Source: Cliona cf. orientalis (lineage: Eukaryota > Porifera > Demospongiae > Clionaida > Clionaidae). From it: a DNA stretch of 64,000 bases. The translations under genes and the position numbers were made by a program. Position 1 is the stretch's first letter; each line of letters starts with the position of its first letter. This document shows positions 14,371 to 61,493 of the stretch, in pieces. Where the stretch lies: positions 10,955,029 through 11,019,028 of the forward strand of contig OZ005692.1 of assembly GCA_963930775.1 (NCBI GenBank), in the 5' to 3' direction. The notes under the pieces are model-generated. The model was not told the origin of the DNA and ran no database searches. It saw nothing but the letters and a program-made list of their open reading frames with translations.

Positions 14371-15365
14371 CTACTGCTTGGAGAGTGGGGCTTTCTCCAT
14401 CATTGGCTCTTTTGGACCCTGTGGGGCTGGTCTACCAGCTTTGCATGACACCCTTGGGTGGCGCCCCGAGCAGATTGAACACATGTGGCGGAATTTGCAC
14501 ATATTACCGAAACGGCATCCGCCGCGGTTGAAGAGGTAGCATATGTCGCTCCGTGATGCATTAGAACTCATGGGTGCTGCGCGTTTAGGAGGAGGAGGCT
14601 CGGAGTAATATGTGTGCTGCGCAGGTGAATGTGAAGGCCCAGGAAGGTCTGTAGGGCGGGGGCCAGTTGTGTTGGTGGTAGCCATTGGGATTTTTCTGGC
14701 ATGGCCTGTGAAGACCCTATTATAAATGAGTGAGTCGATTTCTGACCATTTGCGGTTTCCTGTTGCAGCCGCTTTCTCACGGAATGCCTCATCGTAGCTT
14801 CTCCAGGCTGGATCCTCGAATTCCTGCGCCGCTCTGATTATGGTGAACATGTATGCTAACAAGTCATTAATTGCTCCCGGGTTGTGTTGCTGGACAGCTG
14901 CCATAAATATCACAAAACATTGGACCCACGTGATGATGTCCTTTATGGGCTTGCGGCGGGCCCGTGCTATCTCCAACCCTGGCAGGATTATGTAATTTTG
15001 AGGGTCCGGCTCTGGGTTGAGGGAGTCGAGAGTACCGGCTGGTTTTAGATCAGCTAGGTCAATGAATTCCCAATTAGCAATTTTATCGTGAATTTTCTTT
15101 GGGATGGCAGGAAGACCATTACCAATCCATACTTTCTTCTCTTTTGCAGCAGAGCCAGATTTGGGGAGTAGCAGATTAAGCCAAGCGGTAGCAGATTCTG
15201 TTGCTGTGGTGGCAGCTAATGCAGAGGATATACCGGATGTGTTAGCCATATTTGGGGTCTTATCTGAGAGGGGCAATTTGGCGTTGGGTGGGATGGCACC
15301 AAGTACGACGGAAGCTAAATGTGCACCATGAGAGAAGAGGAGGGAATTAGAGAGAAAGAGAGAGG

Positions 15366-15408
<43 letters not shown>

Positions 15409-30599: not shown

Positions 30600-33500
30600 T
30601 GAGTGTGCGTGTGCAAGTGTGCTGGCGTGTGTGTGAAGGCATGCACTCACGCAGAAGATGTTATGTATTTACAGTTGCAGAGAAGACCCAGTAAAAACTA
30701 CCTGTAGGTTGGTATGCAAGGCCATTTCCAGTACAATGGTAAACAGAGTAGCTAAGTATTTATCTCAAGTTACATGTCACTATACAACAGAGAGTACTGG
30801 TACAGTGGATCACTAACAAATGGTACACTTGAGTATTAGTATAGGTATTTCAAACTCAGGTGCCTATTTCACTTGTAATACTTGTAACTGGCATACAAGA
30901 TTTGTGTATATTATCATAGTACAAGTATACTATAATTATATACACCAAGATGAGTCAGCAAACATCATTTGTAGTAAATACCTCGTGAATGTTTACCACA
31001 TATACCAACATAAAAGTAACAAACACGGCATTGCTATGAAATCACAAGGAAATTGACTAACTTGGAAGTAGTGCTATTTGATATCAGGTCAACTCTTAGC
31101 TATATAGCCAGATGTGAATCTCTCACGTGCACCCTTGCTTCATCGTAAAGAAAGGTATTAATCACCCTTGAAGAAAATGGCAGATTCAAAACAAGACATG
31201 GTAAGCATATTAATTCTTGTAGATATACGCAAGTCATGCATGCAATCTATTTTTTACATGTGTTCATACACTTTTGATGTACAACTCTGGAATGTTAGAG
31301 AGATGAGGCAATCAGTACATTGAACAATGAATTAGCGGAGATTAAAATTGGCATAAAAGACATGAAAGACAGCATAAGCACCCATTCGAAGATTAACACA
31401 GCAGTTTTAATAGTGTTTGCTGCATCCATCATCTTTCTATATCAAAGGCAATGACCATGATCGCATACAAGTGTTGAAACAAGAGAAGAGACCAATATTC
31501 AACTGTAGCCAGTAATCTATTGTACACGTAGTTACTCATTTTGCAAGGTACAGTAGTCAGTAGCGCACACATTAAATCTTACTAGCTATACATGCATTGT
31601 ACAATAATATTTCCAGATGCAGTATAATATATTCATGAGGAAAATACATCATGATCAATATTGTGAATCATAGTGAAAACGTTAGCCTCTAGCTAGCTCT
31701 GCATGTACAATTATGGAACAATGAATTTTAGCTATGAATTTCACTATAAAGAGATCACATGTTCAACACACACGTACACACGGCCATAGCCCTGTACATG
31801 TACAAGATTTTGAATTACTAGCAGCTGTAAAACTGTATAAGTGGCAAGATAAGAGAACATCAATCATATGATGTTTAAAACTTGTCTTTGCAGATGGAAA
31901 ACCCCATTTCTCTCTAATAGGTCACACTACCAAGTTCAAACCATGGAGTGGCACAATCTACCAGGTATAAATACACGAGACCAGGTTATAATAATTATAG
32001 GCAGTGTGTATGGGAATATAAATCTAATGTTGCCCAAGCTCACTCAAGTAGCTACTGTTTCAATCCTTAGATCATTTGATGACTCAGCACTTAAGGGAGA
32101 TTCGTTAGGCCAGAAGACTCCTCTGATTTCTTACTTCCCCCCACCGTGAGTGAGGCACATGATGAGAAGACAAGAAAATGCAAACAAAACAGAAAAGATA
32201 CACGAGATGATGCAGAAGAGAAAATTGAGAGAGGAGAGAATGTACAGCCAACAGGCACTGGAGGAGAAAGAGAAATGAAGTACACATATTGTATGTGTAC
32301 ATTATTCTTGTCACAGTACTAGTAGCTTTACTTTCAGCCATCGCCATATCGGCTCCAACTGACAATACTTGCCATGTGATAGCAGGAGGAAAAGGATTAA
32401 AACTAGCTAGAGAGGGAGAGAGACCTTTTGTAATTTTGGTCAATGTTGATCGAATCAGACAACTGTGTAGTACACCAATGCAAACTCCAACTTGCTGGCT
32501 TCAGTCAATTAGAATTAGTACCAAGAGTACAAACTGTGCGATCACAAAACTATATGATAACATACTCGAGGTCAGCTACCAAGCCACCAGTTGAGGGAGC
32601 CACCAGCTGCACATCAAAGTGGAGGGTGAGCACATCAAAGGAAGCCCATTCACCGTCAATTGGATCAAGAAGCTTGGCACTCCAATCAAGACCATTAGTG
32701 GAGTGCAGAGGCCATGGGGTGCGGCGATCAACAAGAAAGGAGAGATTTTGGTAATTGAGAGAGGTGGACACTGTATCTCCATCTTCAATCCACAGGGAGA
32801 GAAATTTCGATCGTTTGGCTCGAAAGGCTTTGAACCGGGACAGTGCAATCGTCCTGAGGGTGTGGCAGTGGATGATGATGGCAACGTACTGGTGGCTGAT
32901 GCTGGCGACCATCGTATTCAGAAGTTTACATCCGGCTATAAGTGTATCACTAGTGTGGGGAGCCATGGCAGCAATCCTCTGCAATTTAGCAACCCAACAA
33001 GTGTATCAATTTCTCCAATCACAAAAAAAGTTGCAATATCAGATTACCTTAATAATCAAGTTCAGATTCTTAATCCAGATCTGACATTCCATAGTACTAT
33101 TGGCAGCAAGGGCAGTGGCAATGGACAGTTCAATGGGCCTCATGATGTAGCATTTGATAGTGCAGGAAATTTATATGTGACTGATCGTACCAACCATCGT
33201 ATTCAGGCCTTTAATCCCGAAGGACAGTTCTTGCGACAGTTTGGAAAGAGAGGCAATGGTGATGGAGAACTAAACTATCCTACGGGTATAAGCATTGACA
33301 GTGATGACACAGTGTATGTGGTTGAGGCTCGCAACGATCGTTTTTTTGTATTCACACATGAGGGAAAATTTCTGACATCTTTTGGCAGCCAGGGAGATGG
33401 ACCAGGACAATTCAACAGTCCTTACAGACTAACAGTGGATAGGAATGGATTAATCTATGTCTCTGATACTGGCAATAACCGTCTTCAAGTCTTTTGAAGT

Positions 33501-36500
33501 AAACATATTCATAGTTTAGAACTCAACTATAATAATTATGTTCGATATGCATAGTACTATTAGCACTGTAACATCAGACAGTTTACAGACAATATCTAGG
33601 GAATTTACTCCCACTCACCTATCAATTTCATTCGTACTATTAATATACTATACACGCACATAGTACATGCTATATACAATACATGCAAGTGGTAACACAT
33701 TTGGACCACCCTGTGGACAACAGAATCATTGATTTTCAAGCTCATCATCATTAAATTTGGAGAGGTAAGAAGTAAACTATTGCTAATATGACATATTTAG
33801 GAAGCTAAATATTTTGTGAGAATTAACATAATATAGCTATATAATAGTTGAATGTGCCAACTTATAGGTATATATACATGTACAAAAAATGGGTGTGTCA
33901 TCCCTTAGTCTATAGCTATAGTGCCAAAATTTGACCAGGTTCAATAACTACACAGATTTGGGCAGAGCCACCAAAAGGATCGACCCACAATAGACAAATA
34001 CCCTCAACATGAGTACCATTCCTGGCCACAATAGTCAAATTTGTGATACCTGTGCTCAACGTACTAATGCAATTAATAATGAATTGGCAACTCTCAAGAA
34101 TGAGGTGAAGAAGCTAAGAAAGCAAGTCGCTTATTTCTTTCTTGCAACTCTGGTTGCTACTATTGCTATTCTCCTGGCCTTGACGTCATTTCCTAGTCTA
34201 AGACTATCCTTTGCAAAAACATACATATCTCCCAAGGATTGCTTTGCCACAGGCAGGGGGTTGGAAATGGCTGTGGTTGGAGAGCAAGCTAATGCGGTTT
34301 TACGTATAGTTGATACATCAGGGAAAGGATACAATATACAGAAGGAGACAGTGGTGTGTGAGTTTGTGTCTGAACCAAGTTGGGTAAAGATTGACTGTAA
34401 CGTGAGGAAGGTGATGGAGAACCAGTATGACATCAGCTACCAGCCCACTGGTCAAGGGAGGCACCAGCTGCATATCAAAGTGGAGGGGGAGCACATCAAA
34501 GGAAGTCCATTCATTGTCCTTGTGAAGCTACCAGTCCTGAAGCTGGGAAATCCAATCAAGATCATCAGTGGAGTGAAGCAGCCATGGGGTGTGGCAGTCA
34601 ACCAGAGAGGGGAGATCATAGTAGCTGAGAGTACTGGGCACTGTGTCTCCATCTTCAGCCCAACTGGAGAGAAGCTTCGATCATTTGGCTCACAGGGCTC
34701 TGGACCAGGACAGTTCAACGAACCTTATGGTGTGGCAGTGGATGATGATGGCAATATTATACTGGTGGCTGATTCTATCAACCATCGTATTCAGAAGTTT
34801 ACATCCGACAATAAGCATATCACATTGTCAAGTGTGGGGAGCCAAGGCAGCAATCGTTCGCAATTTAACAGCCCAATAAGTGTAGCCATTTCTCCCATCA
34901 CTAAGAAAATTGCAATATCAGATAAGTCTAATCATCGAATTCAGATTCTTAATCCAGATCTGACATTCAATAGTAGTATTGGCAGCAGGGGCAGTGGCAA
35001 TGGACAGTTCAATGGACCTAATGATGTAGCGTTTGACAGTGTAGGAAATATGTATGTGGCTGATCGTAACAACCATCGTATTCAAGTCTTTAATCCTGAG
35101 GGACAGTTTTTGCGACAGTTTGGAAATGAAAGCAAGGGTGATGGAGAGCTAAACTTTCCCACAGGTATAAGCATTGATAGTGACGACACAGTGTATGTGG
35201 CCGAGGGTCTCAACCATCGTGTTTTAGTATTCACACGCGAGAGAAAATTTCTGACATCATTTGGCAGATGGGGAGATGGACAAGGACAATTTATAAAGCC
35301 TTTTAGAATAATAGTGGATAAGAATGGAACAATCTATGTCGCTGATACTTCTAATAATCGCCTTCAAATATTTGCAAAACTGTTAAAGCCACCACATTAA
35401 TTTTTATAGGGCGATTGATTTTGGTCCTTGCTACAAGTATTTTAGCGATATAACAAGTATGATCCTGTTTTACTATAGTAATACTTTTGAGTGTATTTTT
35501 AGTTACACATTTAGTATGGGACTAAATTGGAACCAAGTGCTAAAAACAGTGGATAGGAATGGATTAATGTTTAAATAATATTATAGTAGATATAAACAAT
35601 TAAGTCGTCAGTTTAGCACTCAAAATTATATTATACAATGTCATAAGATTATTCACATTCGATGCTATACTTTTAATTTTGAAACATCAGTCTATCCATA
35701 GGCAATAATCATCATGAATAAATTTAATGCTAAGATATGAGTGAGGGGAGGGGGAGGAGGATCTTCAGGAATACCACTCACCTATAAATTCATTTACTTT
35801 CATTGTGTATACAAGTGGTAATACATTCGGCCCTCCTCTGGAAAGAATCCTTGATTTTCATGCTCACCATCTTATGGCAAGGTAATACTTAAACTATGCA
35901 TTGTTAATATTTATCCCTGCTGTGCTAGTGAGGATCAAGTTAATAATAACAACATACATTGCATGTATCATAATATTAAAATTGTTATAGAGATAGTAGA
36001 CTCGATAAGTAGGGACAGTTCAGACACTCCCATATCGTATTATGTAATACCATCACGCCCGGTACATTTTAGGCATTCTAGACTTCAAATTCAAAACCTT
36101 TGGCTACTGTTTTTACCACTATGAACCATTGCCTTAGGTCAAGCTGGGGGGGGGGGGGGGGGGGGGGGGGGGGCGTGGCAACTTGTAGGCATAAAAAGTG
36201 GGTGTGTCAATACTAGCTAGCTAGTGCCAAAATTTGATCAGTTCTTTCATCGTAATCAACAACACATATTTGAGCAGAGCCACCAAAAGGACTCAGAATA
36301 GACTTCTACAGAAATACCCTCAGTATGAGTACCATATTATCGGATGGTCGTTCTACTGCACAAAATCCTGGCAATAATGGTCAAATTTGTGACACAAAAC
36401 TTACCGGTGCTCAATGCAATAATGAAATGAACGATGAGTTAGCAACTCTCAAGAATGAGATCAAGCAGCTAAGGAAGCAAATTATTTATTGGTTTATTGC

Positions 36501-39500
36501 CACTCTGGTCATCATTACTGCTGTTTTTGTGGCTTCAGTATCATTGACTACCCTCCATAAATACGTACGACGTATCTCCCAAGGATTGCTTTGCCACAGG
36601 CAGGGAATTGGAAATGGCTGTGGTTGGAGAGCAAGCTAAAGTGGAGGGGGAGCACATCAAAGGAAGCCCATTCACTGTCACTGTGAAGCTACCAGTCCAG
36701 AAGCTGGGCTATCCAATTAGGGTCGTCAGTGAACTAAAGAAACCATTGGGTATGGCAGTCAACAAGAAGGCACAGATTTTGGTAGTTGAGAAGGATGGGC
36801 ATTATATCTCCATTTTCAGTCTGATAGGAGGGAAATTAGGGTCATTTGGCTCTGAGGGCTCTGGACCAGGGCAGTTCAATGAACCTTGTGGCATAGCAGT
36901 GGATGATGATGGCAACATACTGGTGGCTGATACTATGAACCATCGCATTCAGAAGTTTACATCCGACAATAAGTATATCACAAGTGTGGGGAGCCATGGC
37001 AGCAAGCCTTTGCAATTTGACAGCCCAATAAGTGTAGCCATTTCTCCCATCACTAAGAAAATTGCGATATCAGATTGGAATAATCATCAAGTTCAGATTC
37101 TTAATCCAGATCTGACATTCCACAGCATGATCATTGGCAGTGAGGGCAGTGGCAATGGACAGTTCACTGGGCCTCATGATGTAGCTTTTGACAGTGCAAA
37201 GAATTTATATGTGACTGATCGTTCCAACCATCGTATTCAGGTCTTTAATCCTGAAGGACAATTCTTGAGACAGTTCGGAAAGAGAGGCAAGGGTGATGGA
37301 GAACTAGATTTTCCTGCTGGTATAAGCATTGACAGTGATGACAGAGTGTATGTGGTTGAACCTCTCAACAATCGTGTTTCAGTATTCACACATGAAGGAA
37401 AATTTCTGGCATCATTTGGCAGTGAGGGAGATGGACCAGGACAATTCAACAAACCTTACAGACTAACAGTGGATAGGAGTGGATTAATCTATGTCTCTGA
37501 TACTGGCAATAATCGTCTGCAGGTCTTTTGAAATTTAGTGAAAATAAACATATTCATAGTTTATCACTCAACTATAATAATATTATTATCCATGCATAAA
37601 ATTAATTACATTTGGTATATACATAGTATTATTAGCACTTGTAATATTAGGTTGTTCACGGGCAATAGCCCAGTAGATATCATGACCAAATAAGGCTTTC
37701 CTCTCACTCACCTACTGGTATGTTAAGCTATGCATGCAATAGTACATGCTATACACAATACATGCAAGTGGTAACACATACGGGCCCACCCCGTGGACTT
37801 CAAGCTCATCATCTTTTGGCAAGGTAAGAAGTAAACTATTGCTAGTATTCACCCCTGACATATTTAGGAAGCTCAATATTTTATGAGAATTAACACAATA
37901 TAGCTACATAAACAGTTGCATGTGCCAACTTGTAAGTACAAAAAATGGGTGTGTCATCACTTAGTCTAATAGTATATCTAGTACCAAAATTTGATAGTTT
38001 CAACAACTACGCAGATTTGGGCACAGCCACCAAAAGGATCGACCCACAATAGAGATCTACAGAAATACCCTCAGCATGAGTACCATGATATTATCGGATG
38101 GTCATCCTGCTGCACAAAATCCTGGCAATACGGGTCAAATTTGTGAAACCTGTGCTCAATATACTAACGCAATTAACAATGAATTGGCAGCTTTCAAGGC
38201 AACTTTCAAGAATGAGATGAAGAAGCTAAGGAAGCAAGTTGCTTATTTCTTTCTTGCAAATCTGGTTGCTATTACCGCTACTCTCCTGGCCTCGACATCA
38301 TTTCCTAGTCTAAGACTATCCTTCGCAAAAATATATGTATCTCCCAAGGATTGCTTTGCCATAGGCAGGGGATTGGAAATGGCTGTGGTTGGAGAGCAAG
38401 CTAATGCAGTATTACATACAGTTGATACATCAGGAAAAGGATACGTTTTACAAATGGAAACAGTAGTGTGTGAATTTGTGTCTGAATCAAGTGGGGAAAC
38501 AATCGATTGCATTGTGAAGAAGATGGAGAACCAGTATGAAGTCAGCTACCAAGCCACCAGTCGAGGGAGGCACCAGCTGCACATCAAAGTGGAGGGGGAG
38601 CACATCAAAGGAAGTCCATTCAATGTCCTTGTGATTCTACCAGTTCAGAAGCTGGGCATTCCAATCAAGATCATCAGTGGACTGAAGGAGCCATGGGATG
38701 TGGCAGTCAATAAGAAGGGGGAGATTTTGGTAATTGAGATGCATTGTATCTCCATTTTCAGTCAGATAGGAGAGAAACTAGGATCATTTGGCTCAGAAGG
38801 CTCTGGACCAGGACAGTTCAAACGTCCTTTTGGTGTAACAGTGGATGATGATGGCAACATACTGGTGGCTGATACTGGCAATGATCGTATTCAGAAGTTT
38901 ACATCCGACAATATGCATGTCTCAAGTGTGGGAAGCCATGGCAGCAATCATTTGCAATTTAGCACGCCAACAATTGTGTCCATTTCTCCCATCACTAAGA
39001 AAATTGCAATATCAGACTGGGATAATCATCAAGTTCAGATTCTTAATCCAGATCTGACATTCCACAGTAGTATTGGCAGCAAGGGCAGTGGCAATGGACA
39101 GTTCAAAGTGCCTAATGGTATTGCATTTGACAGTGCAGGGAATATGTATGTGACTGATGCTGAGAACCATCGTATTCAAGTCTTTAATCCTGAGGGACAG
39201 TTCTTGCGAAAGTTTGGAAAGAGAGGCAAGGGTGATGGAGAACTAGACTTTCCTGCTGGTATAACCATTGATAGTGATGACACAGTGTATGTGGTTGAGG
39301 AAGAGAACCATCGTGTTTCAGTATTCACACATGAAGGAAAATTTCTGACATCATTTGGCAATGAGGGAGATGGACCAGGACAGTTTTCTAATCCCCATAG
39401 ACTAACAGCGGATAAGAATGGAATAATCTATGTTGCTGATAATGATAATAATCGTATTCAAATATTTTAGAGTCATCTTTTGTAAGATGATTAATTTTGA

Positions 39501-42500
39501 ACACCTTATACTTTTTTTATAATCCTACTTTATTGCCGTATAGCGGAAAACTTTGGCAAGATTTTAAATTTGGCATAGGTCACCAAATTAAATGCACACC
39601 TGTGGCAGTATAAGGCTTCAGATTGCCAAATCTAAACTCCACCAATATCAATGGAGAGCCATTTCGCCAAATTTAATGCTTGCCAAAGTTACCCACTGTA
39701 CAGTATACATTTGGCAGGAGCAGCCAGGTTGGCAATTGCCCAGGTCACATGACTGTGGGTGAGTACCACTCCATACTGCATGCCACATGATTGTATATCA
39801 TGGCTGTAGGTACTCCACCCATAGATATTCAGCACCTGTGCACACATGATCCACCGTACAGTAGTATGTCATATGATCGGTCACATATTATTTGGGGAAA
39901 GTGTGAGTGAGGGCCCATAATATTATTTGGGGGGCAGAGGGTAGGGGGGTGGAGGGGGGCTGAGTGCAGTGGCAATGAATAATTTAGACAACCCCCCCCC
40001 CGGCCCCCCGGCCCCCCATGCATGCAGTGCCAGGATGTAGTATTTGACAGTGCAGCTGGAAACACACAATGAATGAGGCTCACACTTGACAATGTGCAAG
40101 AATCTATTGTATGCATAAGTCATCACATACAAGAAACTAGAGCTCTGTAGAGCACATACCCCGCACGCTCTGTAGCCACTATAGCGTCGTATTGAGGCAT
40201 ACATGTAGCTGTTTCATGACGTGACGACCCTTTCCAACACAGTGCTTGAGCATGCGCAGTCGCATCCGCATACTATTATGCTAAAAGAGTGGGTGTGGTC
40301 GATAAATCACAGGCATGCTGAACAGAAAATGCACTATTTGTAGCACTAGTAAGCCTTTTTGAGGAATTTGAAACGCGTACAAACCAGTTTTTCACCGATA
40401 TCCACCGATTGGTTGTGCTTTCAGTACGAATAGATACCTAGAACGCGAGATCTGGCGATTTTCGTGCCGACAACTACGACGACGACGACGACGACAGACA
40501 TACAAACTGATTGCTTTACCCCTTGCGCATGCGCACGGGGTAACAATTATTGAGCATTGAGTAGATATTATACATACGTTGTAGACCAGGACAATGAATA
40601 TGCAGTGTAAGGGAAATGAATAAAGTGCATCAAGCAGAGGGTGCCATGGGGACTCCATGAATCATGGTATTCAATACACTCATCATGAATTTACTACACG
40701 TACTAGGTCATCCACTCTAGGTATAATGATTATGAATATTATATGACTACTTACACGATCAGCCCACCACACCCCCTTAGGCTATAGATAGGCAGGCGCC
40801 CCTGGACACAAGAACCTTTGTTTTCAAGCTATAAGCTGCTATCAAATTTATAGTCAACTAGCGAGGTAAGCACACACTGGATCCTGTTCACGTCTAGAAG
40901 GCTTGGCCTATAGAGTTCATCTTTGAGAAGGAGTTATGCATGGATTTGAGATGATTAAAACTTTTCTCTTCAAAATCTTAGGTCATGTCTAGAAGACTTG
41001 AGTACAATCATTATGAAGGTAATATGTAATTGCTAACAAATTAGGGAGAAAAAATTTGCATGTTCAAATTAATCCACATAACAAGTACGCTCATTCTTGT
41101 TACACCAAAACTGGCAGAATAGAATAATAATATTCTTGCCAGTGTTGGTGTAACAAGAACGAGCATACTTGCTATGTGGATTAGTATGTTCAAATTTGTG
41201 AAAATTTTTTCCTGGTGAAACTGCTGTTCTAATGTGCATGTATCATTCCTCAGACACTTTGGATATCAGAGACTTATACGTGATATTATCCAATTTCTGG
41301 GAGGCCAGAAATAAATGGTTTAATATTGGACTTGGTCTGAATCTGGAAGTAAGTGATCTGGAGGAAATTCGACAAACAAATAGAGATCACGTGGATGACT
41401 GCTTTAGGGACATGCTTGAGAAATGGCTAAGGACCAGCCTAAGACCAACTCAATCCAACCTAATTACAGTACTAAGAGAGAGAACTGTTGGATTCAATCA
41501 ACTGGCAGAAGAATTGGAGAGCAAGAGCTTTGAGAGAGATAGGGTAATACATCAACTTAGAATGGCATCCACCAGGTATAGAAAGAACAGCCTACCTGCC
41601 CCCAGCCTAGTAAAGTGTAAGTCAGTCATCAAGATCGGTGTTATCATGCTTATCGCTATAATTCTTTTGTTCACTGCGTTCAATCTCAGAAGTACATATT
41701 TTAATCGTATTTCTCCTAAGAACTGCTTTGCCACAGGCAGTGGGCTAGAAACGGCTGTGGTTGGAGTGAAAGCTAAGGCAGTTCTGCATCTAGTCAATCA
41801 AAGAGGAGCAGCTTACACTAAACAAGTGAACATGATAACATGTGAACTAATACACGAATCAATCGGCAAGATACCAGATTGTGAAATCATATGGAGATCT
41901 AACTATATCAAGGTAAAGGAGGCCAATGTTGGCCAGTATGAAGTCAGCTACCAAGCCACCAGTCAAGGGAGGCACCAGCTGCACATCAAAGTGGAGGGGG
42001 AGCACATCAAAGGAAGCCCATTCACCATCATGATTGTGAACCTATCAGTCCAGAAGCCTGGCACTCCAATCAAGACCATCAGTGGACTGAAGTGGCCACT
42101 TGGTGTGGCTATCAACAAGAAGGGTGAAATTTTGGTAGCTGAGAGCGGTAGACACTGTATCTCCATATTTAGCCCAACTGGAGAGAAGCTTCGATCATTT
42201 GGTTCACAAGGCTCTGTACCAGGACAGTTCAATGGTCCTCAGGGTGTAACAGTGGGTGATGATGGCAACATACTGGTGGCTGATGCTATGAACCATCGTA
42301 TTCAGAAGTTTACATCCAATAATAAGCACATCACAAGTGTAGGGAGCCGTGGCAGCAATCCTCTGCAATTTGGTTACCCATTAAGTGTAGTCATTTCACC
42401 CATTACAAAGAAAATTGTAATATCAGATTGGGATAACGATCGAGTTCAGATTCTTAATTCAGATCTGACATTCCATAGTAGTATTGGTAGCAGGGGCAGT

Positions 42501-45500
42501 GACAATGGACAGTTCAATGGGCCTCATAATGTAGCATTTGACAGTACTGGGAATATGTATGTGACTGATGCTAACAACCATCGTATTCAAGTCTTTAATC
42601 CTGAGGGACAGTTCTTGCGACAGTTTGGAAAATTAGGCAATGGTGATGGAGAACTATACTTTCCCACGGGTATAAGTATTGACAGTGACGACACAGTGTA
42701 TGTGGTTGAGCACGACAACCATCGTGTTTCAGTATTCACACGTGAGGGAGAATTTCTGACAACATTTGGCAGAGGGGGAGATGGACCAGGACAATTTAGT
42801 TCTCCTTATGGAATAACAGTGGATAAGAATGGAATGATCTATGTTACTGATACTTCTAATAATCGTATTCAAATATTTTAGAGTCATATTTTGTAGGATG
42901 ATTAATTTTGATCACCTTATATTACTTATTACAATCCTACTTTATTGCATATACCGTATAGAATGAAACTTTGGCGAGATTTTTAATTTGGCGATTTGGC
43001 AAATTCAGATAGGCCACTAAATTAAAACTCGCCAATTGAACTTAACGTATGCATACCAATGGCGGTATAAGGCTTTAGATCACCTAGTTTAAAACTTCAC
43101 CAATATCAATGGAGAGCCATTTTGCCAAATTTAATGCTCACCAAAGTTATCCACTGTACAGTATACATTTGGCAGGAGCAGCCAGGCTGGCAATTGCTTG
43201 GGTCACGTGACTGTGGGTGAGTACCACCCCATACTGCTACATGCATGATTGTATATTGTGGCTGTAGGCACTCCACTTATAGCCTGTGCACACATGGTCC
43301 ACAGTACAATAGTATGTCATGTGATCGGTCACATTTTTGGGGAAGTGTGAGTGAGGGCCCACATTCAGGGGGTGGAGGGTAGGGGGGCTGAGTGCAGTGG
43401 CAATGGACAATTTAGATGACCCCCCTCCCCCCGGTCCCCCATGCATGCAGTGCCAGGATGTAGTATTTGACAGTGCAGCTATAGAAACACACAATGAATG
43501 AGACTCACACTTGACAATGTGCAAGGATTTACTGTATGCATAAGTCATCATATACAAGAAGCAATTATTGAGCATTGAGTAGATATTTAAAAGCCAAATA
43601 TTATGCATACGTTGTAGACCAGGACAATGAATAGTGTAAGGGAAATGAATCTAGTGCATCATCCAGTGCACTGGGTGGGGACTAGATGAATCATGGAATT
43701 TTTAACACACTCACCATGAATTTATTGCACGTAGGTCATCCGCTCATATATTTACCGGTATTATGATTATGAATATTATGTGACTGCTTACACAGTCAGC
43801 CCACCACACCCCCCTATAGGCCTTGGACACAAGAACTCTTTGTTTTCAAGCTTTAAGCTGCTATCAAATTTATAGTCAATTGGCAAGGCAAGCACACTCT
43901 GGTCCTGTTCATGTGCATGGATTTAAATTGAGATAGTGAAAACTTTCCTCTTCAGAATCTTAGGTCATGTCTAGAAGACTTAAGTACAATGAAGGATTGT
44001 TAACAAAGGAGAAAAAATTTTAAAAAATTTTCTTCCATTTTACTGTACACATGTGTACTGTTTTCACTCAATTCCTCAGATCCTTTGGATATTAGAGATT
44101 TAAATGAGATATACTCCAAGCTTTGGGACGCCAGAAATAAATGGTTTAGTATAGGACTTGGTCTGAATCTGGAATATACCGACCTGAAAGAAATTCAACA
44201 AACAAACAGAGAGGATGTGGAGAAGTGCTTTATGGACATGCTTGAAAAATGGCTAAGAATCAGCCTAAGACCAACGCAATCCAATCTAATAACAGTTCTA
44301 AGAGAGAGGACCATTGGATTTAATCAACTGGCAGAAGAATTGGAGAGCAAGAGCTTCGAGAGAGATAGGGTAATACATCAACTTAGAATGGCATCCACCA
44401 AGAGGTATACAAAGAACAGCCCACCTGCCCCCAGCCTAGTCAAGTGTACATGTAAGTCAGTCATCATCAAGATCGGTGCTATCGCTATTTTTTTGTTCAC
44501 TGCGTTCAGTCTTAGAAGTATAATATATAATAATCGTATTTCTCCTAAGGACTGCTATGCCACAGGCAGGGGGCTAGAAGTGGCTGTGGTTGGAGAGAGA
44601 GCTAAGGCAGTTCTGTACCTAGTCAATCAAGGAGGAGCAGCTTACACCAAACAAGTGAGCACGATATCATGCGAACTAATACACGAACTAACCGGCAAGA
44701 CACCAGATTGTGAAATCATATGGAAAGCTAACCATAAGGTAAAGAAGGCCAGTATTGGCCAGTATGAAATCAGCTACCAAGCCACCTATCTAGGGAGGCA
44801 CCAGCTGCACATCAAAGTGGAGGGGGAGCACATCAAAGGAAGTCCATTCACTGTCAATGTTGTCAAAATCATCAGTGGACTAAAGTACCCATGGGGTGTG
44901 GCGGTCAACAAAAAGGGTGAGATTTTGGCAGCTGAGAGTGATGGACACTGTATCACCATCTTCAGCCCAACTGGAGAGAAGCTTCGATCATTTGGCTCAG
45001 AAGGCTCTGGACCAGGACAGATCAACGAACCTTATGGTGTGGCATGCAGTGGATGATGATAGCAACATACTGGTGGCTGATGTTGTCAATCATCGTATTC
45101 AAAAGTTTACATCCGACAATAAGTATATCACAAGTGTAGGGAGCTGGGGCAACAATCCTTTGCAATTTAACCTCCCAGCTAGTGTAACCATTTCTCCAAT
45201 CACTAAGAAAATTGCAATATCAGAATGGGAGAATTATCGAGTTCAGATTCTTAATCCAGATCTGACATTCCACAGTAGTATAGGCAGCAAGGGCAGTGGC
45301 AATGGACAGTTCGATCAGCCTTATGATGCAGCATTTGACAGTGCAGGAAATATGTATGCGACTGATGCCTCGAATAATTGTATTCAAGTCTTTAATTCTG
45401 AGGGACAGTTCTTGCGACAGTTCGGAAATAAAGGCAAGGGTGATGGAGAACTAGACTATCCTATGGGTATAAGCATTGACAGTGATGACACAGTGTATGT

Positions 45501-48500
45501 GGTTGAGAATGACAACCATCGTGTTTCAGTATTCACACATGAGGGAAAATTTCTGACATCATTTGGCAGTGAGGGAGATGGACCAGGACAATTCAACTTT
45601 CCTTATGGAATAACAGTGGACAAGCAGGGAACAATCTATGTTGCTGATTTTAGCAATAATCGTATTCAAATATTTGCAAAACCGATAAAGTCACCACATG
45701 AAACTTAAGTAGAATGATCGATTTTGGTGAGTACCATGACGGTCGCCATGCTGATACACAACACGAGGTTCTGGACCAGGACAGTTCAATGCCCCTCAGG
45801 GTGTGACAGTGGATGATGATGACAACATACTGGTGGTTGACTGTTTGAACCATCGTATTCAGAAGTTTACATCCGACTATAAGCATATCACAAGTGTGGG
45901 GAGCTATGGCAGCAATCCTTTGCAATTTGACCGCCCAGTAAGTGTATCTATTTCTCCCATCACTAAGAAAATTGCAATATCAGATTAGAATCATCAAGTT
46001 CAGATTATTAATCCAGATCTGACATTCCATAGTAGTATTGGCAGCTATGGCAGTGGCAATGGACAGTTCGATCGGCCTTATGATACAGCATTTGACAGTG
46101 CAGGAAATTTATATGTGACTGATGCCTGGAACAATCGTATTCAAGTCTTTAATCCTGAGGGACAGTTCTTGCGACAGTTTGGAAAATTAGGCAATGGTGC
46201 ATGATGGAGAACTAGATTTTCCTGCTGGTATAAGCATTGACAGTGACGACACAGTGTATGTAAATGAGTACAACAACTGTCGTGTTTCAGTATTCACACA
46301 CGAGGGAAATTTTCTGACATCATTTGGCAGCCAGGGAGATGGACCAGGACAGTTTTATTATCCCCATAGAATATCAGTGGATGGGAATGGAATAATCTAT
46401 GTTGCTGATACTAGTCGTATTCAAATATTTTAGAGTCACCTTTTGTAGGATGATTAATTTTGATTAGCTACCTTATACTATTTATTACAATCCTACTTTA
46501 TTGCATACCATATAGCCAGAAAATTTGGTGGGGAATTAAACATGGTGGTTTGGCGGTCTATATTACAACCACCAAATTAAAATCCGCCAAAATTTCCTAC
46601 TTGCATATATACGCATTGCGATCCTGTACCGAACCGCCAAATTTAAATCTGTAATAGCGATTTTGGGCTCAACCGCCAAATTTAATTCCCGCAAATATTT
46701 CCGGCTGTACGGTATACTGTATAGTGGGAAATTTGGTGAGGTTTATAATTTAGAGATTTGACGAATTCAGTATAGGTCACCAAATTAAAAACTCGCAATT
46801 GCATGAACTAAATGCATGCACACCTATGGCAGTATAGGCTTCAGATCGCCAAATTTAAACTTCACCAATACCAATAGATTCACCAAATTTAATGCTCGCT
46901 AAAGTTACCTGCTGCATTTGGCAGGAGCAGCCAGGCTGGCAATTGTCCGGGTCATGTGACTGTGGGTGAGTACTACCCCATACTGCTAAATGATTGTATA
47001 TTATGGCTGTAGGTACTCTGCTTATAGATAGTCAGCACCCGTGCACACATGGTGGCAGGATAAGCACACACTGTACTTGACTGATTCTTGGAACCAAGTG
47101 TTAATAACAGTAAATAGGAATGAAAAGTAGCAAAAATAAACAAGTCGTCAGTTTAGCACTCATGCAAATATAACATTCAATACTACACTATTGATATCAC
47201 TGAGTCTACTCACAGGCAATGAATAAACAATATGAGTGAGGGGAGGGGATCTTATGAATACTTCCAACACACCTATGAATTTCATTTACTTGCATTGTTT
47301 ATGCTATGCACACACTTAGTATTATACAACTGGTAGGTACAAAAAAGTGGGTTTGTCAACACTATATAGTTAGCTATAGTGCCAAAATTTGACCAGCTTG
47401 AATATTTCTTCACCATAAATAACTACACAGATTTGAGCAGAGCCACCGAAAGGACTCAGAATAGATCTACAGAAATACTCTCAGCATGAGTACCATATCG
47501 GATGATCATCGTCCTGTTGTACAACATCCTGGCAATAACGGTCAAAATGTTTCTGGTGCTCAACACACTAATGCAATGAATGACGAGTTGGCAACTCTCA
47601 AGAATGAGATGAAGCAGCAAAGGAAGCAAATTATTTGGGTGTATTACATTCTTGCCATTCTGGTTGCTATCATTGCTTTTCTCTTGGGTACCTTGATAGG
47701 ACTTTCTGAACTATCCTTTATAAATATTATTATATACTAAGATTATAGTTGTCCGTGCGTCCGTGCGTCCGTCCGAGCGGGAGGTGACCGGAAGTGATTT
47801 GACCCGAGCTAAAAAGTTTTCTTTCTGGGCGTCACTGGACTTGGGACGATACAGCAGACAGCCAACTAACGGCGGCTGGCTATGGCCCAGCAGCCACTAA
47901 AGTGAGCTGCTTAAAAAAAACGGCAGGACAGTATTTAGACTGAACTGTACACTTACATATGGCGGCCTGGAGAATGCGAAAGAGTGACATTCTGGAGTCG
48001 ATGTTGCCCATAGGTGCTTTCCAGAGGGAGGCGATTCTATTCTAAACGTATTTTCTTGGGACCCCTTGTGAGCGAAGCTGCAAGACAAGTAACGAATGCT
48101 TTAGCTAGGTGATTGACAAAGTCACATGATTAGGCAGGATGTGCACATGCGCACAAATACGTAGGTATAGGTCGTCGACCACACATGCACAATAATAGCA
48201 CAAGGATAAAGGAGTGAGCGAGCGAAGCGAGCTCACTCCTTGTAAATATATATGTACATGTCTCTCCCAAAGATTGCTTTGCCACAGGCAGGGGATTGGA
48301 AATGGCTGTGGTTGGAGAGCAAGCTAATGCAGTTTTGCATACAGTTGATACATCAGGGAAAGGATGTGCTTTACAACAGGAGACAGTAGCGTGTGAACTT
48401 GTGTCTGAATCAAGTTGGATAAAGGTTGAATGTAATATGAAAAAGGTGACGGAGAGCCGGTATGAAATCAGCTACCAGCCCACCAGTCGAGGGAGGCACC

Positions 48501-51500
48501 AGCTGCACATCAAAGTGGAGGGGGAGCACATCAAAGGAAGCCCATTCACTGTCACTGTTACTAGACAGTTTGGTGGCCCAAAGGGGACTATTGAGGGGTA
48601 TTTTTACAGCTTAACATCACATCAACCTCTGATTATAGCAGGTGCAACGGGAAGTATCTCAGTATTCGATACATCTCAAAATACAGTAAAATCATTTGGT
48701 TCATCTGGATCAGGTCCAGAAGAGTTCAGTTTACCCTGTGATCTTGCTGTGGACAAAGATGGATTTCTCCTAGTAGCAGATTGCACGAATCACCGCATTC
48801 AAAAGTTTAACCAATGGACACACAAACACATTAGACCAATTGGGAAGATGGGTAAAGGCAATTGTGAGTTTAAAAACCCACGTGGAATAGCAGTCCATCC
48901 CAAAAATGGTATGGTATATATAGCCGACACTGATAACTATCGCATTCAAGTTCTGAATCAAAACTTAACATTCCACAAGATACTGGACACAACCAAGCGG
49001 TTTGTGCCACTGGCCATAGCATTCGATAGCACTGGGAATATCTATGCTATTGACAAATATAATCATAGAATTCTAGTTTATACTAGTTCTTACTGCTAAA
49101 GGAGAGTTCATAAGACATTGTTCACCACCGAGGGCAAGTTTCTAACTTCAATTGAGGACAAGGATATGCCCCCTAATAAGCACTTCCATCCCGATGGAGT
49201 TGCAGTGGATGATAAAGGAATTATTTATGTCATATATTGGCATACTGGTATAAAATGGTTTTAACAAGATTGCTATATATAATAATTACTATTATTATGT
49301 ATGCTTATTATGAACATTGCTAAATACAGAGTTGACACTACACTATAATTAACTAAATCTTGTTGATATTTTAGTTTTATGAGCTTATGATCACTGATTT
49401 CATGCATAGAAACTCACCATTAATAGTAATATTATAGTACGATACATAATACACATCGATATGAAGCATAATGAGCATATAACATGTACCTTTATATTGG
49501 TGCAGTAATCCTCTGTCTCCTTAAGAGTGTAGCCGTAGCTGTCCCTGTTCACCAGCTCCTCAGCTCTGCTTAGCCAATCCTCAAAGACAACACACTGGGT
49601 CTGGAACTTACTCCACAGCAACAGGCTTTCGTCAAGAAACGTTTGCTGCTCCTTCACCTATAACACACACACACAGAGACACACATTAATATGCACAAAA
49701 TTGAATTCCAAAGCTCTATAATCTGTTATGGACAAAAAAATATTAAATCGTAGCTGACAAAATGAAAAAAATGATTTCTTGCCAAATAATTATACAGTAT
49801 TGAAAACCTCCCAATAATCTACTGGCCTATACCTTTCCAGCGACATCCTCATAAGCTTTCCTCAGCTTCCTCACAGTCTCCTCCCCTTTCTCCAGAAGCT
49901 CCGCCTCTTCCTGACACACCCCCTTCAGCTCGGCAAACGAATCGTCCAGCTCCTTCAGCTGCTGGCTCATCTGCAGCGAGTACTGCTCCATGTCGACGAT
50001 GAAATCCATGAGGTCGCGACGTTTCGACTCCATCACTTCCCTGAGGAGAACTCCATCCGGCTGTTCCTTCAACTCCTGACAGGTCTCAGCTATGCTCTCT
50101 AGAACGGCCTATATGAAATTTAGTATTGTAATTTGCATATTTTTTGCTATTAAACATATTGTCTTGTGCAAAATGACACGGAATTTTTTTTTATGCAAAA
50201 AATTTTACTTATATTGTAGCAAATATATGGCATGCGTCAAAAAAAAATTAACATAAAAAGCAAAAGAGTTTTTATGAACAAAATTCAATAAGCAGTATAG
50301 CGATAATATTATCAACTCTGACTTACTTTCTCAGCTTTTTCGAATGTCAGTTGTATCTTCCTTCTCTTGAGCCTCTCCTGGAGGCGGTCCCACCAGCTGT
50401 TCACCCACTGCAGCCGATGCTGCAGCTGCCCGGCTAGCTCTTTAGACGCCGTCACTATCACAAAGTTAGTGTTGGCCTTAGCACGCTTCACCTGGGCAGG
50501 AAAATTAAACATATAAAATGAATTAACATGGAGGGTTCGAGTGAAGGAGAGAGAGGGGGGGGGGGGGGGGGAGAGGAGAGAAGAAAAAGAGAGTATTTTT
50601 GTTTGGAATCCGGTTGTCAGAGAATGTATCAGAAAAGGGTTGTCACAACCTCTTTCTCTCTCCTTCTCCCTCTCTCATAATATTACTGTAGTTAATCACA
50701 TGATCTATCCAATGCATTATTTTTACGAATTCTCATAATGTTTATATATGAGCGACTGACGACCTTTACCAGAAAAACCGCGCGTTTTTCAAAATTGAAA
50801 TTTTTTTCTCCATGCGTTGTATTAGATTAAGTACGGTATCTCACCTTCTGTGACTGGACTGGTATTTGGCTGAGTGTCTCTGTCAGTTCCTCAAGAATGG
50901 AGTCGATCTTCCTGTGCTGGGGCTGGTAGCCACCAGGATGGTAGGACACCTCAGCGTCCAGCTCTGCATCATGGTACATCTTGACAAAGCCAAGACCCTT
51001 CACCCAGTTAATGGAGTACTTGGAACTGGTAGAAGTAGACCTATATACACAAAATTAATAATGGAGATAGGTAGGTATAATAACGGAAGGGAGAAAATAT
51101 TAATTTTAGTTGTTCCCTTGAAAAAAATATGAAAGGATAAAGAAGGAAGGACAGTTAATCTGTCCATACAAGAATCTTTGTTACCGTAGATCACGAAATT
51201 TTTGCTGCTAAAAAAATTTTCGTTGATGACCTTTTCCAACAGTGAACACACGAAATATTTTGTGTAAAGTACGTTGACCTATACCTATTTTGGTCACTAA
51301 AGTCTGGCGACAAAATTTAGACTATGCGAAAAAATTACAAACAAAATATTTTTATCAGCGAAAATATCCCAATCTACGGTATTTATCCGTAGATAGCAAC
51401 TGAGAACGATGCCAACTCACTTTTTATGCAAGAAATCTGACTATTCTCACCTTGTCTCTTGGGTGATGGCCTCCGACTGTTCCGTGCTGGCTACGGTACT

Positions 51501-54500: not shown

Positions 54501-54921
54501 CATTACATGGTACACTAGGCAGTAGTTTACTGAATTTCCATGTTACCTTGAGCTTGTGAAGGTGCCGCTGCTGCTCAGCGTATCCCTTAATCAAGGGGCT
54601 CTCCGCTAATTTCCTCTCGGCCTGGTCAAGCCCCGCCCCTATCCTAGAGATCTCTGTCGTGTGGAAGTGTACGACTCCTTGAAATAGCTGCTCCTGTTTG
54701 GAAGACATGAGTCGAACGAGGGAATCGAACTTGAAAGAAATTTCAAGACTGTCGTCGATCTGTGATTGGCACTCTTCGCGCTTGTCAGATACCTCCTGGA
54801 TTAAGTGCTGTGAAGGAGAGGGAGAGGGAGAGGGGGAGAGAGATAGAGATAGAGAGAGGGGGAGAGAGGGAGAGAAAGAGAGAGAAAGAGAGTGAAAGAG
54901 AGAGAGAGAGAGAAAGAGAGG

Positions 54922-54991
<70 letters not shown>

Positions 54992-59216: not shown

Positions 59217-61493
59217 ATGGCTGAGTCTCAATCTGTTGCCAAGCAAGCCCTGAAGAAGCTGGAGGACCAGCTGACCTGTGCCATCTGCCTCGATGCCTTC
59301 AAAGACCCCAAACTGCTCCAATGCTTCCATGTCTACTGCAAGGACTGCCTCCAGCAACTGGTGATCCAAGATAGACAGGAACAACTCTCTCTACGCTGCC
59401 CCACCTGCCGACAATCCACCCTCCTTCCCCCGGCTACTAGCGTGTCTGACCTCCAGCCAGCGTTCCATATCCACCACCTCTTTGAGATCCAAGACGCACT
59501 GGAGAAGGTGAAAGAGCCTCAAAAGGTACTCTGTACAAAATGTAACAAGAATCGTTCCGCTACTAGCTACTGCCGCGATTGTGGAAAATACATATGCTCC
59601 CTATGCACAACTATACACAGCGATTGGGACGACTTTGCCGGGCACGAGGTGGTAGCTCTAGAGCAGCTAGAGAGCAAAATGAAAGAACTTGACACTTTGA
59701 AGAAGGTGACTTTTTACTGCTCCCTGCACAAAGGCAAGGAGCTCGAGATTTATTGCGAGACGTGTGAGGAGCTCATCTGCCACAACTGCACCGTCACAAA
59801 GCACTGCCGTCCAGAGCACAAGTACAGCCTCGTGGACGACACTTTTGAGCAGCACAAAACTGATATCGCTACATCGCTAGAGCCAATCGAAAAGCAGATC
59901 GGTATCGTAAATAAGGCGCTTGAAGAGCTAGGCCAACAATCAGCCAAGGTAGATGACCAGCGCGGAAGGACAAAAATTGAAATTGCGCGATTGTTTCGAC
60001 AAATTTATGAGGTTCTTGGAGCGCGAAAGGCTGACCTAGACAGTCAAGTCGATCAGCTTGCAAATCAAAAGCTAAAGAATCTAGCTGCACAGAAAGATGA
60101 AGTGGAGACAGTTCAGACCCAGCTGGCCAGCTGTCTGTCATTTGTGAGGGAGAGCCTGAGGACGGGAAGCCAGGGAGAGGTCATGAAAATGAAGAAGACC
60201 GTCATGAAACAGATCAAGGAGATGACAGACAACTTCAAACTAGACATGCTGCCTCCCTGCGAGCGTGCCAATGTCAAATTTGTAGCTTCACCCGAGCTCA
60301 TCCAAATGTGCCAGAAATTTGGAGAGGTATATCGAAGTCATGTGTGTCGTGAGAAATGCTATGCCACAGGCAAAGGCCTGGAGGTAGCTGAACCTGGTGA
60401 GAGAGCCACTGCAGTCCTGCATAGTGTTGTTGATCAGAAGGGGAAGGCTTACAGCACACCAGTGGAGACTCTGACCTGTGAACTGGTGCCAGAGAGTGCT
60501 GGTGAGAAGATAGACTGCTCTGTGAAGAAGACTGAAGCCAGTGGCCAGTACGAAATCAGCTACCAAGCCACCAGTCGAGGGAGGCACCAGCTGCACATCA
60601 AAGTGGAGGGGGAGCATATTAAAGGAAGTCCATTCACTGTCACTGTGAAGCTACCAGTCCAGAAGCTGGGCACTCCAACCAAGACCATCAGTGGACTGAA
60701 GAATCCATGGGGTGTGGCAGTCAACCAGAGAGGGGAGATTATAGTAGCTGAGAGATATGAACACTGTATCTCCATCTTCAGCCCAGCTGGAGAGAAACTT
60801 CGATCATTTGGCTCAAAAGGCTCTGGACCAGGACAATTCAATGAACCTCGTGGTGTGGCAGTGGATGATGATGGCAACTTACTGGTGACTGAGTGCAATC
60901 GAGTGCAAAAGTTTACGCCAGAACATAAATTTATCACAAGTGTGGGTAGCGATGGCAGCAATCATTTGCAGTTTAATTACCCACTTAGTGTAGTTGTTTC
61001 TCCCACCAATAAGAAAATTGCAATAGCAGAGTGGCATAATCATCGAGTTCAGATTCTTAATCCAGATCTGACATTCCACAGTAGTATTGGCAGTGAGGGC
61101 AGTGGCAATGGAGAATTCAATTGGCCTCATGATATTGCATTTGACAGTGCAGGTAATATGTACGTGGCTGATGCTAACAATAATCGTATTCAAGTCTTTA
61201 ATCCTGAGGGACAGTTCTTGCGACAGTTTGGAAAGAGAGGCAAGGGTGGTGGAGAACTAAAGTTTCCTGCTGGTATAAGCATTGACAGTGACGACACAGT
61301 GTATGTGGTTGAATTTACCAATAATCGTGTTTCAGTATTCACACGTGAGGGGAAATTTCTGACATCATTTGGTAGCCTGGGAAATGGACCAGGAGAATTT
61401 AATAGTCCACGTGCATTGACAGTGGACAAGAAACATGGATTGATGTATGTTTCCGATAGTGGTAATAATCGTGTTCAAATCTTTAAAAATTAA
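59217..61493 (+). CDS. RING/B-box/filamin/NHL protein, copy 5
   Basis: 758 residues, same domains as copy 1. The RING is nearly identical, but two patches differ sharply: B-box 1 (CTKCNKNRSATSYCRDC, then KYICSLC) and the stretch before the filamin domain (ELIQMCQKFGEVYRSHVCR). Zinc ligands are still present in both patches. NHL blade 2 is shortened (VTECNRVQKFTPEHK), and the C-terminus is VQIFKN as in the fragment at 17137. Patchy divergence in otherwise near-identical DNA suggests recombination with another, unseen family member. Confidence 0.93.
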   Translation: MAESQSVAKQALKKLEDQLTCAICLDAFKDPKLLQCFHVYCKDCLQQLVIQDRQEQLSLRCPTCRQSTLLPPATSVSDLQPAFHIHHLFEIQDALEKVKEPQKVLCTKCNKNRSATSYCRDCGKYICSLCTTIHSDWDDFAGHEVVALEQLESKMKELDTLKKVTFYCSLHKGKELEIYCETCEELICHNCTVTKHCRPEHKYSLVDDTFEQHKTDIATSLEPIEKQIGIVNKALEELGQQSAKVDDQRGRTKIEIARLFRQIYEVLGARKADLDSQVDQLANQKLKNLAAQKDEVETVQTQLASCLSFVRESLRTGSQGEVMKMKKTVMKQIKEMTDNFKLDMLPPCERANVKFVASPELIQMCQKFGEVYRSHVCREKCYATGKGLEVAEPGERATAVLHSVVDQKGKAYSTPVETLTCELVPESAGEKIDCSVKKTEASGQYEISYQATSRGRHQLHIKVEGEHIKGSPFTVTVKLPVQKLGTPTKTISGLKNPWGVAVNQRGEIIVAERYEHCISIFSPAGEKLRSFGSKGSGPGQFNEPRGVAVDDDGNLLVTECNRVQKFTPEHKFITSVGSDGSNHLQFNYPLSVVVSPTNKKIAIAEWHNHRVQILNPDLTFHSSIGSEGSGNGEFNWPHDIAFDSAGNMYVADANNNRIQVFNPEGQFLRQFGKRGKGGGELKFPAGISIDSDDTVYVVEFTNNRVSVFTREGKFLTSFGSLGNGPGEFNSPRALTVDKKHGLMYVSDSGNNRVQIFKN

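Follow-up and report, generated by a model that had tools for sequence, protein, structure and literature searches.

We present here an analysis of a group of genes in a stretch of 64,000 nucleotides from the sponge Cliona cf. orientalis (contig OZ005692.1, here C4; C4:10955029-11019028 of an assembly of 216.8 Mb in 149 contigs), the whole of which is called the window below. The genes encode proteins in which a transmembrane segment (TM), preceded either by a Death domain or by a short coil, is followed by a filamin repeat (FLN) and a six-blade NHL propeller. These Death-TM-FLN-NHL and coil-TM-FLN-NHL fusions are real. We lean towards reading their products as membrane sensors with the N-terminus inside, with and without a Death domain, whose propellers would be traded through gene conversion with those of TRIM-NHL ligases in the cytosol, an explanation we hold to be probable rather than certain.

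An earlier interpretation made from the letters of the stretch (the sequence-only reading) had claimed that FLN-NHL is fused to TRIM, coil-TM and Death-TM heads, and the open reading frames (ORFs) at 293, 5267, 59217, 34009, 38076 and 40985 bear this out, with the propeller standing under different heads and with uninterrupted ORFs for membrane-anchored forms (by predicted TM) both with and without the Death domain. The copies that it took to be broken, at 36325, 47486 and 43967, are indeed broken (Table 1). Its view that the FLN-NHL module is the same throughout fails for the broken copy whose ORF starts at 48218, which has a different propeller. In the Death gene of the window, the Death domain, TM, FLN and NHL are all encoded by exon 2 alone (41254-42881), so that the main refutation foreseen by the sequence-only reading, in which the exons for TM or Death are never joined to those for NHL, is mostly answered, at the level of genomic sequence, by a single exon holding all of them. 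The start of exon 1, ATGTCTAGAAGA, lies upstream in 6 of the 7 Death copies examined (of 9), and for the copy D10854 it is not found in the 441 bases upstream. A chance origin of the arrangement is unlikely, as the order is constant across several copies and recurs in relatives encoded on other contigs. The filamin-NHL C-terminus, a hallmark of TRIM-NHL proteins, is present in the TM forms by both Pfam and fold matches; in the window Death gene the propeller block is modelled with a predicted local distance difference test score (pLDDT) of 90-99 from residue 271 on, and its nearest folds are Lin41, Thin, TRIM71 and TRIM2. Pfam scans of the TM forms give no RING or B-box, and scans of the TM forms and of the relatives P0020 and P0002 give no NACHT.

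Domain searches, which the sequence-only reading had proposed as a check, place filamin and NHL above the Pfam cut-offs, whereas the Death domain of the window copy stays below its own and is supported by a profile search and a fold model. The points against its identity are that Pfam Death scores 16.7 bits in the full window protein and 21.3 bits in the isolated Death region, with a cut-off of 22.6, and that the Foldseek E-values of the model are weak, 0.13 and up. On the other side, of the 19 members of the Death-family alignment 18 reach E 0.01 or better with Pfam Death, and the full-length relatives P0020 and P0002 exceed the cut-off with 31.8 and 27.7 bits. A profile search of PDB finds FADD best (E 7.3e-5), together with the Death domains of PIDD, ankyrin and RIPK1. 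The AlphaFold2 model of the region has a mean pLDDT of 90, and its top 20 Foldseek matches, including FADD, RIPK1 and Fas, are all Death domains or chains containing one (probability 0.80-1.00). The region thus has the six-helix Death fold in the predicted structure as well as the profile match. Enrichment of DEATH domains in sponges is already known (PMC4772301). In the genome-wide Death query (best 150 of 545 candidates scored) and the NACHT list (104 matches; 103 of 490 candidates scored), at least 7 of the best 150 Death matches have a NACHT match up to about 4.1 kb downstream on the same strand, by eye from the coordinates. As a separate observation, an ORF of 370 aa within the cluster (L081:803-1912, that is C4:10905802-10906911) has a Death domain above the Pfam cut-off and no Pfam match in the rest, a layout resembling that of L018 on contig C11.

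The transmembrane segment is found in every open copy. All 17 (7 Death, 10 coil) have a hydrophobic 19-mer just before FLN with a Kyte-Doolittle (KD) value of 1.88-2.96; in the genes at 34009 and 38076 it reaches 2.54 and 1.88, starting 33-34 residues ahead of FLN. Among 21 TRIM/NHL control ORFs, the highest values in the window's three TRIM genes are 0.83-1.12, whereas two other controls approach the receptors, namely TL092 with 2.28 (ahead of the Met of the TRIM protein) and TL090 with 1.96 (in a Cys-rich stretch of a 949-aa ORF). The segment of the window Death gene is a helix at 129-149 in the predicted structure, with low confidence. By the positive-inside rule the more basic flank lies on the cytosolic side, and K/R in the 15 residues before the TM peak outnumber those after it in 15 of the 17 open copies, so the N-terminus would be inside and the propeller outside. 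The proteins also contain fewer Cys, 1.42 per 100 residues in 35 TM rows compared with 2.10 in 17 TRIM rows (p 1e-5, optimistic because the rows share kinship and near-copies), which fits the expectation for an oxidising compartment. Several results weigh against the favoured explanation: the charge at the TM is even in D10862 and reversed (2 to 3) in D11043, 6 of the 17 Cliona TM ectodomains are without any sequon, and the filamin, linker and TM are poorly modelled in the predicted structure. Sequons are 0.43 per 100 residues in TM forms and 0.20 in TRIM forms, a difference that is not significant (p 0.10, likewise optimistic), and their enrichment was dropped as proof of an extracellular propeller. 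For these counts TL082, TL089, TL090 and TL097 were excluded from the sequon/ectodomain set, while the truncated TL095 was left out of the tree of that set and kept in the test.

Among the matches listed in the genome search, which is the scope of all copy counts here, ORFs joining Death-TM to NHL occur at 9 places, all in C4 10.85-11.10 Mb. Seven of these have an open frame that includes the last blade (10854938, 10862741, window 41202, 11039472, 11043013, 11089014 and 11091845) and two are broken, at window 43967 and at 11033192, the latter ending within the propeller. The coil-TM heads match 17 places, which give 16 copies because 11035399 and 11035600 share one ORF; all 16 lie in the same C4 cluster, 10 being open and 6 broken or fragmentary. 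Near-identical duplicates of other copies account for 2 open Death and 2 open coil genes, and window 32509-45762 is 98.9% identical over 13.3 kb to C4:11080324-11093582; two ungapped blocks of this match, 3.7 and 3.9 kb long, have 1 and 6 mismatches. The near-identical copies D11089, D11091, C10989w and C10993w were therefore treated apart, being excluded from the nearest-neighbour and permutation, third-position, sliding-window, variable-site and loop dN/dS tests and retained in the TM hydrophobicity table, the sequon and Cys counts, the head dN/dS and the trees. Divergent Death-TM-FLN-NHL proteins, including P0020 and P0035, are encoded on other contigs, where P0034 is a TM-FLN-NHL protein; P0011, P0013, P0014, P0015, P0017, P0018 and P0019, also on other contigs, are without Pfam filamin and keep only the filamin end, by eye. 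The relative P0002 has a tandem pair of Death domains ahead of TM-FLN-NHL, with exon-1-like text before the second (by eye), which suggests a duplicated 5' unit. In the broken coil-TM copy of the window, about 500 bp at 47730-48237 are missing from the counterpart at C4:10868191-10868208, a copy that is elsewhere 98-99% identical, and the matches on the two sides overlap by 18 bp; the extra sequence looks like an insertion contributing to the break of the gene.

The relation between heads and propellers was examined in 19 local-cluster genes, of which 5 are Death, 8 coil and 6 TRIM. For FLN, the nearest neighbour by DNA distance has the same head class in all 19 genes, and 0 of 1000 permutations attain the observed class separation; for NHL the agreement is 13/19 and the mean separation is reached by 722 of 1000. 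With third positions only, the corresponding values are 19/19 and 0 of 1000 for FLN, and 14/19 and 630 of 1000 for NHL. The head labels change 3 times on the FLN tree and 12 times on the NHL tree (the truncated TL092, TL095 and TL096 being excluded from both). In a scan of 15 genes by 20-codon windows the class agreement is 15/15 up to columns 70-90, 13/15 at 80-100 and 8/15 at 90-110, and beyond that varies from 4 to 10 of 15 up to column 190, where the scan ends. The break falls within the conserved text YQATSRGRHQLHIKVEGEHIKGSPF, near the filamin end. At third positions, with Death lineage B counted apart, as is the second propeller type, the FLN of local TRIM genes is at a distance of 0.29 to distal TRIM and 0.46-0.50 to the main local receptor classes, whereas their NHL is at 0.45-0.51 to distal TRIM and only 0.20-0.25 to these receptor classes. 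Approximately unbiased (AU) tests on NHL reject a single coil clade (p 0.0002) and a single TRIM clade (p 0.0004); on FLN, the local propeller pool as a clade is rejected, with the pool group defined after the NHL tree was seen. In addition, a second, distant propeller type stands under the coil head in the genes 10868 and 11049 and the relatives P0023, P0026 and P0030, and the broken window copy (ORF 48218) carries this type, being 98% identical to 10868.

The phylogeny is thus discordant on the two sides of the boundary, silent sites included, as looked for in module exchange. By these comparisons the unit exchanged is the propeller, while FLN stays with its head class and the boundary lies near the filamin end; the sequence-only reading, in which N-termini were swapped onto a fixed FLN-NHL, had this largely the other way round. 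The exchange is partial, and the results that tell against a free pool are as follows. The NHL agreement of 13/19 is above the chance expectation of 5.9 and is reached by 16 of 5000 permutations, the excess being due to the existence of close pairs. When three close partners are removed it is 8/16 for all sites and 10/16 for third positions, with 5.2 expected (592 and 39 of 5000 permutations, respectively), and the 12 label changes on the NHL tree are below the shuffled mean of 23.3, 0 of 200 shuffles being as low. A complete loss of the class signal in the propeller is ruled out by this residual nearest-neighbour agreement. The heads thus keep their lineage while the propellers mostly follow location, a pattern characteristic of gene conversion or unequal exchange of propellers.

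The coil head, in turn, can be traced to the receptors themselves. P0035 and P0020 carry a Cys4 stretch between Death and TM (ICQICDTKLTCPQCTKENMAKLE in P0035), and the coil heads carry text resembling it (GQICDTKLTSAQCTNEMNDELATLK in P0024). In local alignments of 12 of the 13 coil proteins (P0031 excluded) with the P0035 linker, the best score is 88 (P0029) with a shuffle mean of 22.6, and 10 of the 12 heads are matched by 0 of 1000 shuffles; P0034 is matched by 321 of 1000. In the filamin tree, whose alignment is short and in which 26 of 42 inner branches have support below 80, a branch sets the coil class apart (18 rows, support 87), and another groups it with the main Death class, separate from TRIM (33 rows, support 93). 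Against these stand the coil head of the window itself (P0022, at 34009), which 22 of 1000 shuffles equal, the P0020 linker, which weakly resembles the coil heads (1 of 12 at 0 of 1000 shuffles), and Death lineage B, which is separate from the other receptors in the FLN tree. On the whole, the alignments make the coil-TM head homologous to the Death-to-TM linker of P0035. Since the FLN tree also joins the coil class with the main Death class, the best reading of the coil class is loss of the Death domain from a receptor; the opposite direction, with the coil class first and Death gained later, is possible. The match to the linker of a relative, together with the divergent Death-TM-FLN-NHL proteins elsewhere, indicates that the architecture is probably older than the local copies, and the three N-termini are thus not independent inventions of the locus, as had been proposed. 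A kinase origin of the coil-TM leader was considered for the in-frame KDRPTIDIYRNTL before MSTI, which by eye looks like a kinase end, and was rejected: this second head query has 17 matches from 17 candidates, all in the C4 cluster, and 8 of them contain stops, so the text is taken as a 5' leader.

The propellers vary on one face. The test covers 17 genes of the common propeller type (C10868 and C11049, with the second type, being also excluded from the variable-site and loop dN/dS analyses), with loops taken from the predicted structure. The topology of a four-stranded blade puts its BC and DA loops on the same side, and it is with this face that NHL propellers usually bind ligands. The mean entropy of the BC+DA face is 1.14, compared with 0.50 for the AB+CD face (p 1e-4), and among the 30 most variable sites 25 are in BC/DA loops, 5 in strands and 0 in AB/CD; the contrast is seen in TRIM, Death and coil forms alike. 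The pooled ratio of non-silent to silent rates (dN/dS) is 0.57 for BC, 0.63 for DA, 0.15 for AB, 0.33 for CD and 0.48 for strands. For the BC+DA face it is 0.57-0.80, below 1, a point against the favoured explanation. Thirty hand-picked sites, chosen by eye after looking at the sequences, give 1.03 overall, 1.56 within coil genes and 0.79 within Death and TRIM genes; the structure-based loops give lower values with the same one-face pattern. For the Death domain, lineage B (10854, 11039) compared with lineage A shows a dN/dS of 0.27-0.37 in 7 of 10 pairs (dS 1.40-1.79, hence imprecise), with the other 3 saturated, and distinct lineage A copies show 0.20-0.62 among themselves. The filamins of the latter show 1.04-1.65 (7-31.5 non-silent and 2-8.5 silent changes), which could be relaxed or diversifying selection.

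The explanation that we favour may be put as follows. The products of the locus would be type II (N-in, C-out) single-pass membrane proteins, which in one class would hold a Death domain in the cytosol and in the other a short coil derived from the Death-TM linker. In both classes the filamin would serve as a stalk for an outward six-blade propeller, whose variable BC/DA face would make it the recognition module. Propellers would move among Death receptors, Death-less receptors and the neighbouring TRIM-NHL ligases by gene conversion or unequal exchange, frequently and incompletely, with the conserved filamin end as the likely homologous anchor. Binding at the surface may cluster the proteins, upon which the Death forms would recruit Death-domain partners, while the Death-less forms may act as decoys, dimer partners or anchors, and the purpose of the whole may be immune; the division into ubiquitin-type, Death-type and possibly decoy forms that was first proposed seems a fair reading of the predicted proteins. 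A bolder version, which we put forward tentatively and regard as rather unlikely to hold in full, is that one variable propeller pool supplies three outputs, namely cytosolic ubiquitin ligases, Death surface receptors and Death-less decoys, and that conversion at the filamin anchor redeploys specificities among them. This would be a matched recognition inside and outside the cell in an animal without adaptive immunity, possibly aided by the AID/APOBEC-like deaminase genes of the cluster.

The same proteins might instead lie in an internal membrane (endoplasmic reticulum, Golgi or endosome) with a luminal propeller and a role in trafficking, adhesion or quality control. A basic N flank suits any secretory membrane, and the non-significant sequon enrichment agrees with such a place. 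However, a variable face and a local expansion with broken copies suggest a role in recognition or conflict, and proteins of quality control do not usually have a Death head; we consider this location unlikely. It is less probable still that the TM genes are mostly a by-product of birth and death, that is, low-function duplicates with young open frames. The abundance of broken copies, 6 of the coil type and 2 of the Death type, and the 13.3 kb duplication would agree with this, but the low dN/dS of Death between lineages, the architecture shared by the divergent P0020 and P0035 and found as TM-FLN-NHL in P0034, and the receptor filamin as a lineage of its own all argue to the contrary.

The exchange itself would be illusory if constraint or saturation had erased the class signal in NHL. 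The propeller is repetitive and conserved, and a residual class signal is there; yet the main local classes are unsaturated at third positions (0.11-0.26) while the distal TRIM propellers are far (0.44-0.52), for which reason we take the propellers to track location and the filamins to track class, and hold erasure very improbable. As for the number of copies, window 32509-45762 and C4:11080324-11093582 may be two haplotypes, so that the count is partly an assembly artefact, as their identity and long near-perfect ungapped stretches would allow. Against it, the two copies differ in intactness, and no N run occurs in the window or in the cluster pieces read (the intervening stretch was read only in part); we take this possibility seriously while leaning away from it. 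The fusion and exchange results are independent of the haplotype question, because near-identical copies were dropped from the exchange tests. If the favoured explanation of N-in sensors with exchanging propellers is true, an early-branching animal has a receptor architecture that we have not found described, in which one membrane protein combines a Death domain and a TRIM-type filamin-NHL propeller, and its genome lets ubiquitin ligases inside the cell and receptors in the membrane draw on the same evolving recognition part. It would also provide a natural example of a decoy-like form that lacks Death and retains linker, TM, filamin and propeller. No membrane filamin-NHL or Death-NHL family was found described in the open-access literature, searched by title and start of abstract, which is no proof of absence.

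Table 1. Genes, domains and broken copies of the FLN-NHL family in the window (positions are those of the window)
Feature	Position	Strand	Evidence
Death-TM-FLN-NHL gene, exon 1 (MSRRLEYNHYE + 1 base)	40985..41018	+	GT donor/AG acceptor, frame preserved; ends read from sequence
Same gene, exon 2: Death, linker, TM, filamin, six NHL blades, stop	41254..42881	+	Single open frame; Pfam
Death domain (predicted)	41254..41535	+	Profile, Pfam family matches, fold model
Transmembrane helix (predicted), N side slightly more basic	41625..41699	+	KD 2.78; K/R 4 before, 3 after
Filamin repeat, by descent part of the head	41712..42026	+	Pfam PF00630 1.8e-14; FLN tree
Six-blade NHL propeller, exchangeable module	42063..42878	+	Pfam PF01436 2.5e-47
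Second Death-TM-FLN-NHL copy, broken	43967..45708	+	Exon 1 without GT donor; frame break in propeller, where the open frame (350 aa) stops
Open coil-TM-FLN-NHL gene, Death-less head (P0022)	34009..35400	+	One ORF from ATG; Filamin and NHL above Pfam cut-off
Open coil-TM-FLN-NHL gene	38076..39470	+	One ORF from ATG; Filamin and NHL above Pfam cut-off
Broken coil-TM-FLN-NHL copy	36325..37531	+	Head-query matches
Broken coil-TM-FLN-NHL copy, second propeller type, ORF start 48218	47486..49099	+	98-99% identical to C4:10867942 copy
Headless FLN(part)-NHL ORF	32595..33497	+	ORF and Pfam
RING/B-box/coil-FLN-NHL (TRIM) gene	293..2569	+	One ORF; Pfam RING, B-box, Filamin, NHL
TRIM-FLN-NHL gene	5267..7543	+	One ORF; domains by eye
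TRIM-FLN-NHL gene	59217..61493	+	One ORF; domains by eye

Other elements lie among these genes. Two ORFs on the reverse strand, at 9600-10484 and 63236-64000, are 95% identical over the 132 residues compared, and both have an N-terminal hydrophobic segment, the second being cut by the window end. The former has a weak AID/APOBEC-like deaminase match (NAD1, E 0.002, below the cut-off), with HAE and CxxC by eye, and no PDB match at E 1. There are 29 matches in the genome, of which 19 fall on contig C13 between 8.39 and 8.46 Mb; a TRIM-NHL cluster is next to these, at 8.36-8.38 Mb of that contig. At 11436-15693 (reverse strand), adjacent ORFs resemble, by eye, a tyrosine recombinase, a reverse transcriptase/RNase H and a gag-like CCCH protein, together a putative DIRS-like retroelement in the cluster, and a long low-complexity S/L-rich ORF at 54442-55050 (reverse strand) is, by eye, probably no gene.

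Among known systems, the TRIM-NHL proteins (TRIM2, TRIM3, TRIM71/LIN-41) are like the TM forms in having a filamin followed by a six-blade NHL propeller, and the nearest solved fold to the filamin-NHL part of the TM forms is the Danio Lin41 filamin-NHL, with 32% identity. Where TRIM-NHL proteins have a RING, a B-box and a long coil, the TM forms have instead a TM with a Death domain or a short coil. Teneurins are membrane proteins of type II whose NHL propeller lies outside the cell; they are far larger and not known to have a Death domain or such a filamin, and a teneurin-like chain comes at rank 39 among the fold matches of the propeller. The death receptors of the TNF-receptor family (Fas, TNFR1) also have a single TM between the Death domain and an unrelated ectodomain, and the Death fold predicted for the sponge receptors is close to those of FADD, Fas and TNFR1. 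The order differs, however: the TNFR layout has cysteine-rich TNFR repeats as the N-terminal ectodomain and a cytosolic C-terminal Death domain, whereas the sponge proteins carry the Death domain at the N-terminus (type II order) and filamin-NHL as the predicted ectodomain. Putative membrane NOD-like receptors are mentioned for sponges (PMC12909245). The Death-bearing NOD-like receptors of sponges (NLRD) share with the TM forms a Death domain of the same expanded family, but the TM forms, without NACHT in Pfam scans, carry a membrane anchor.

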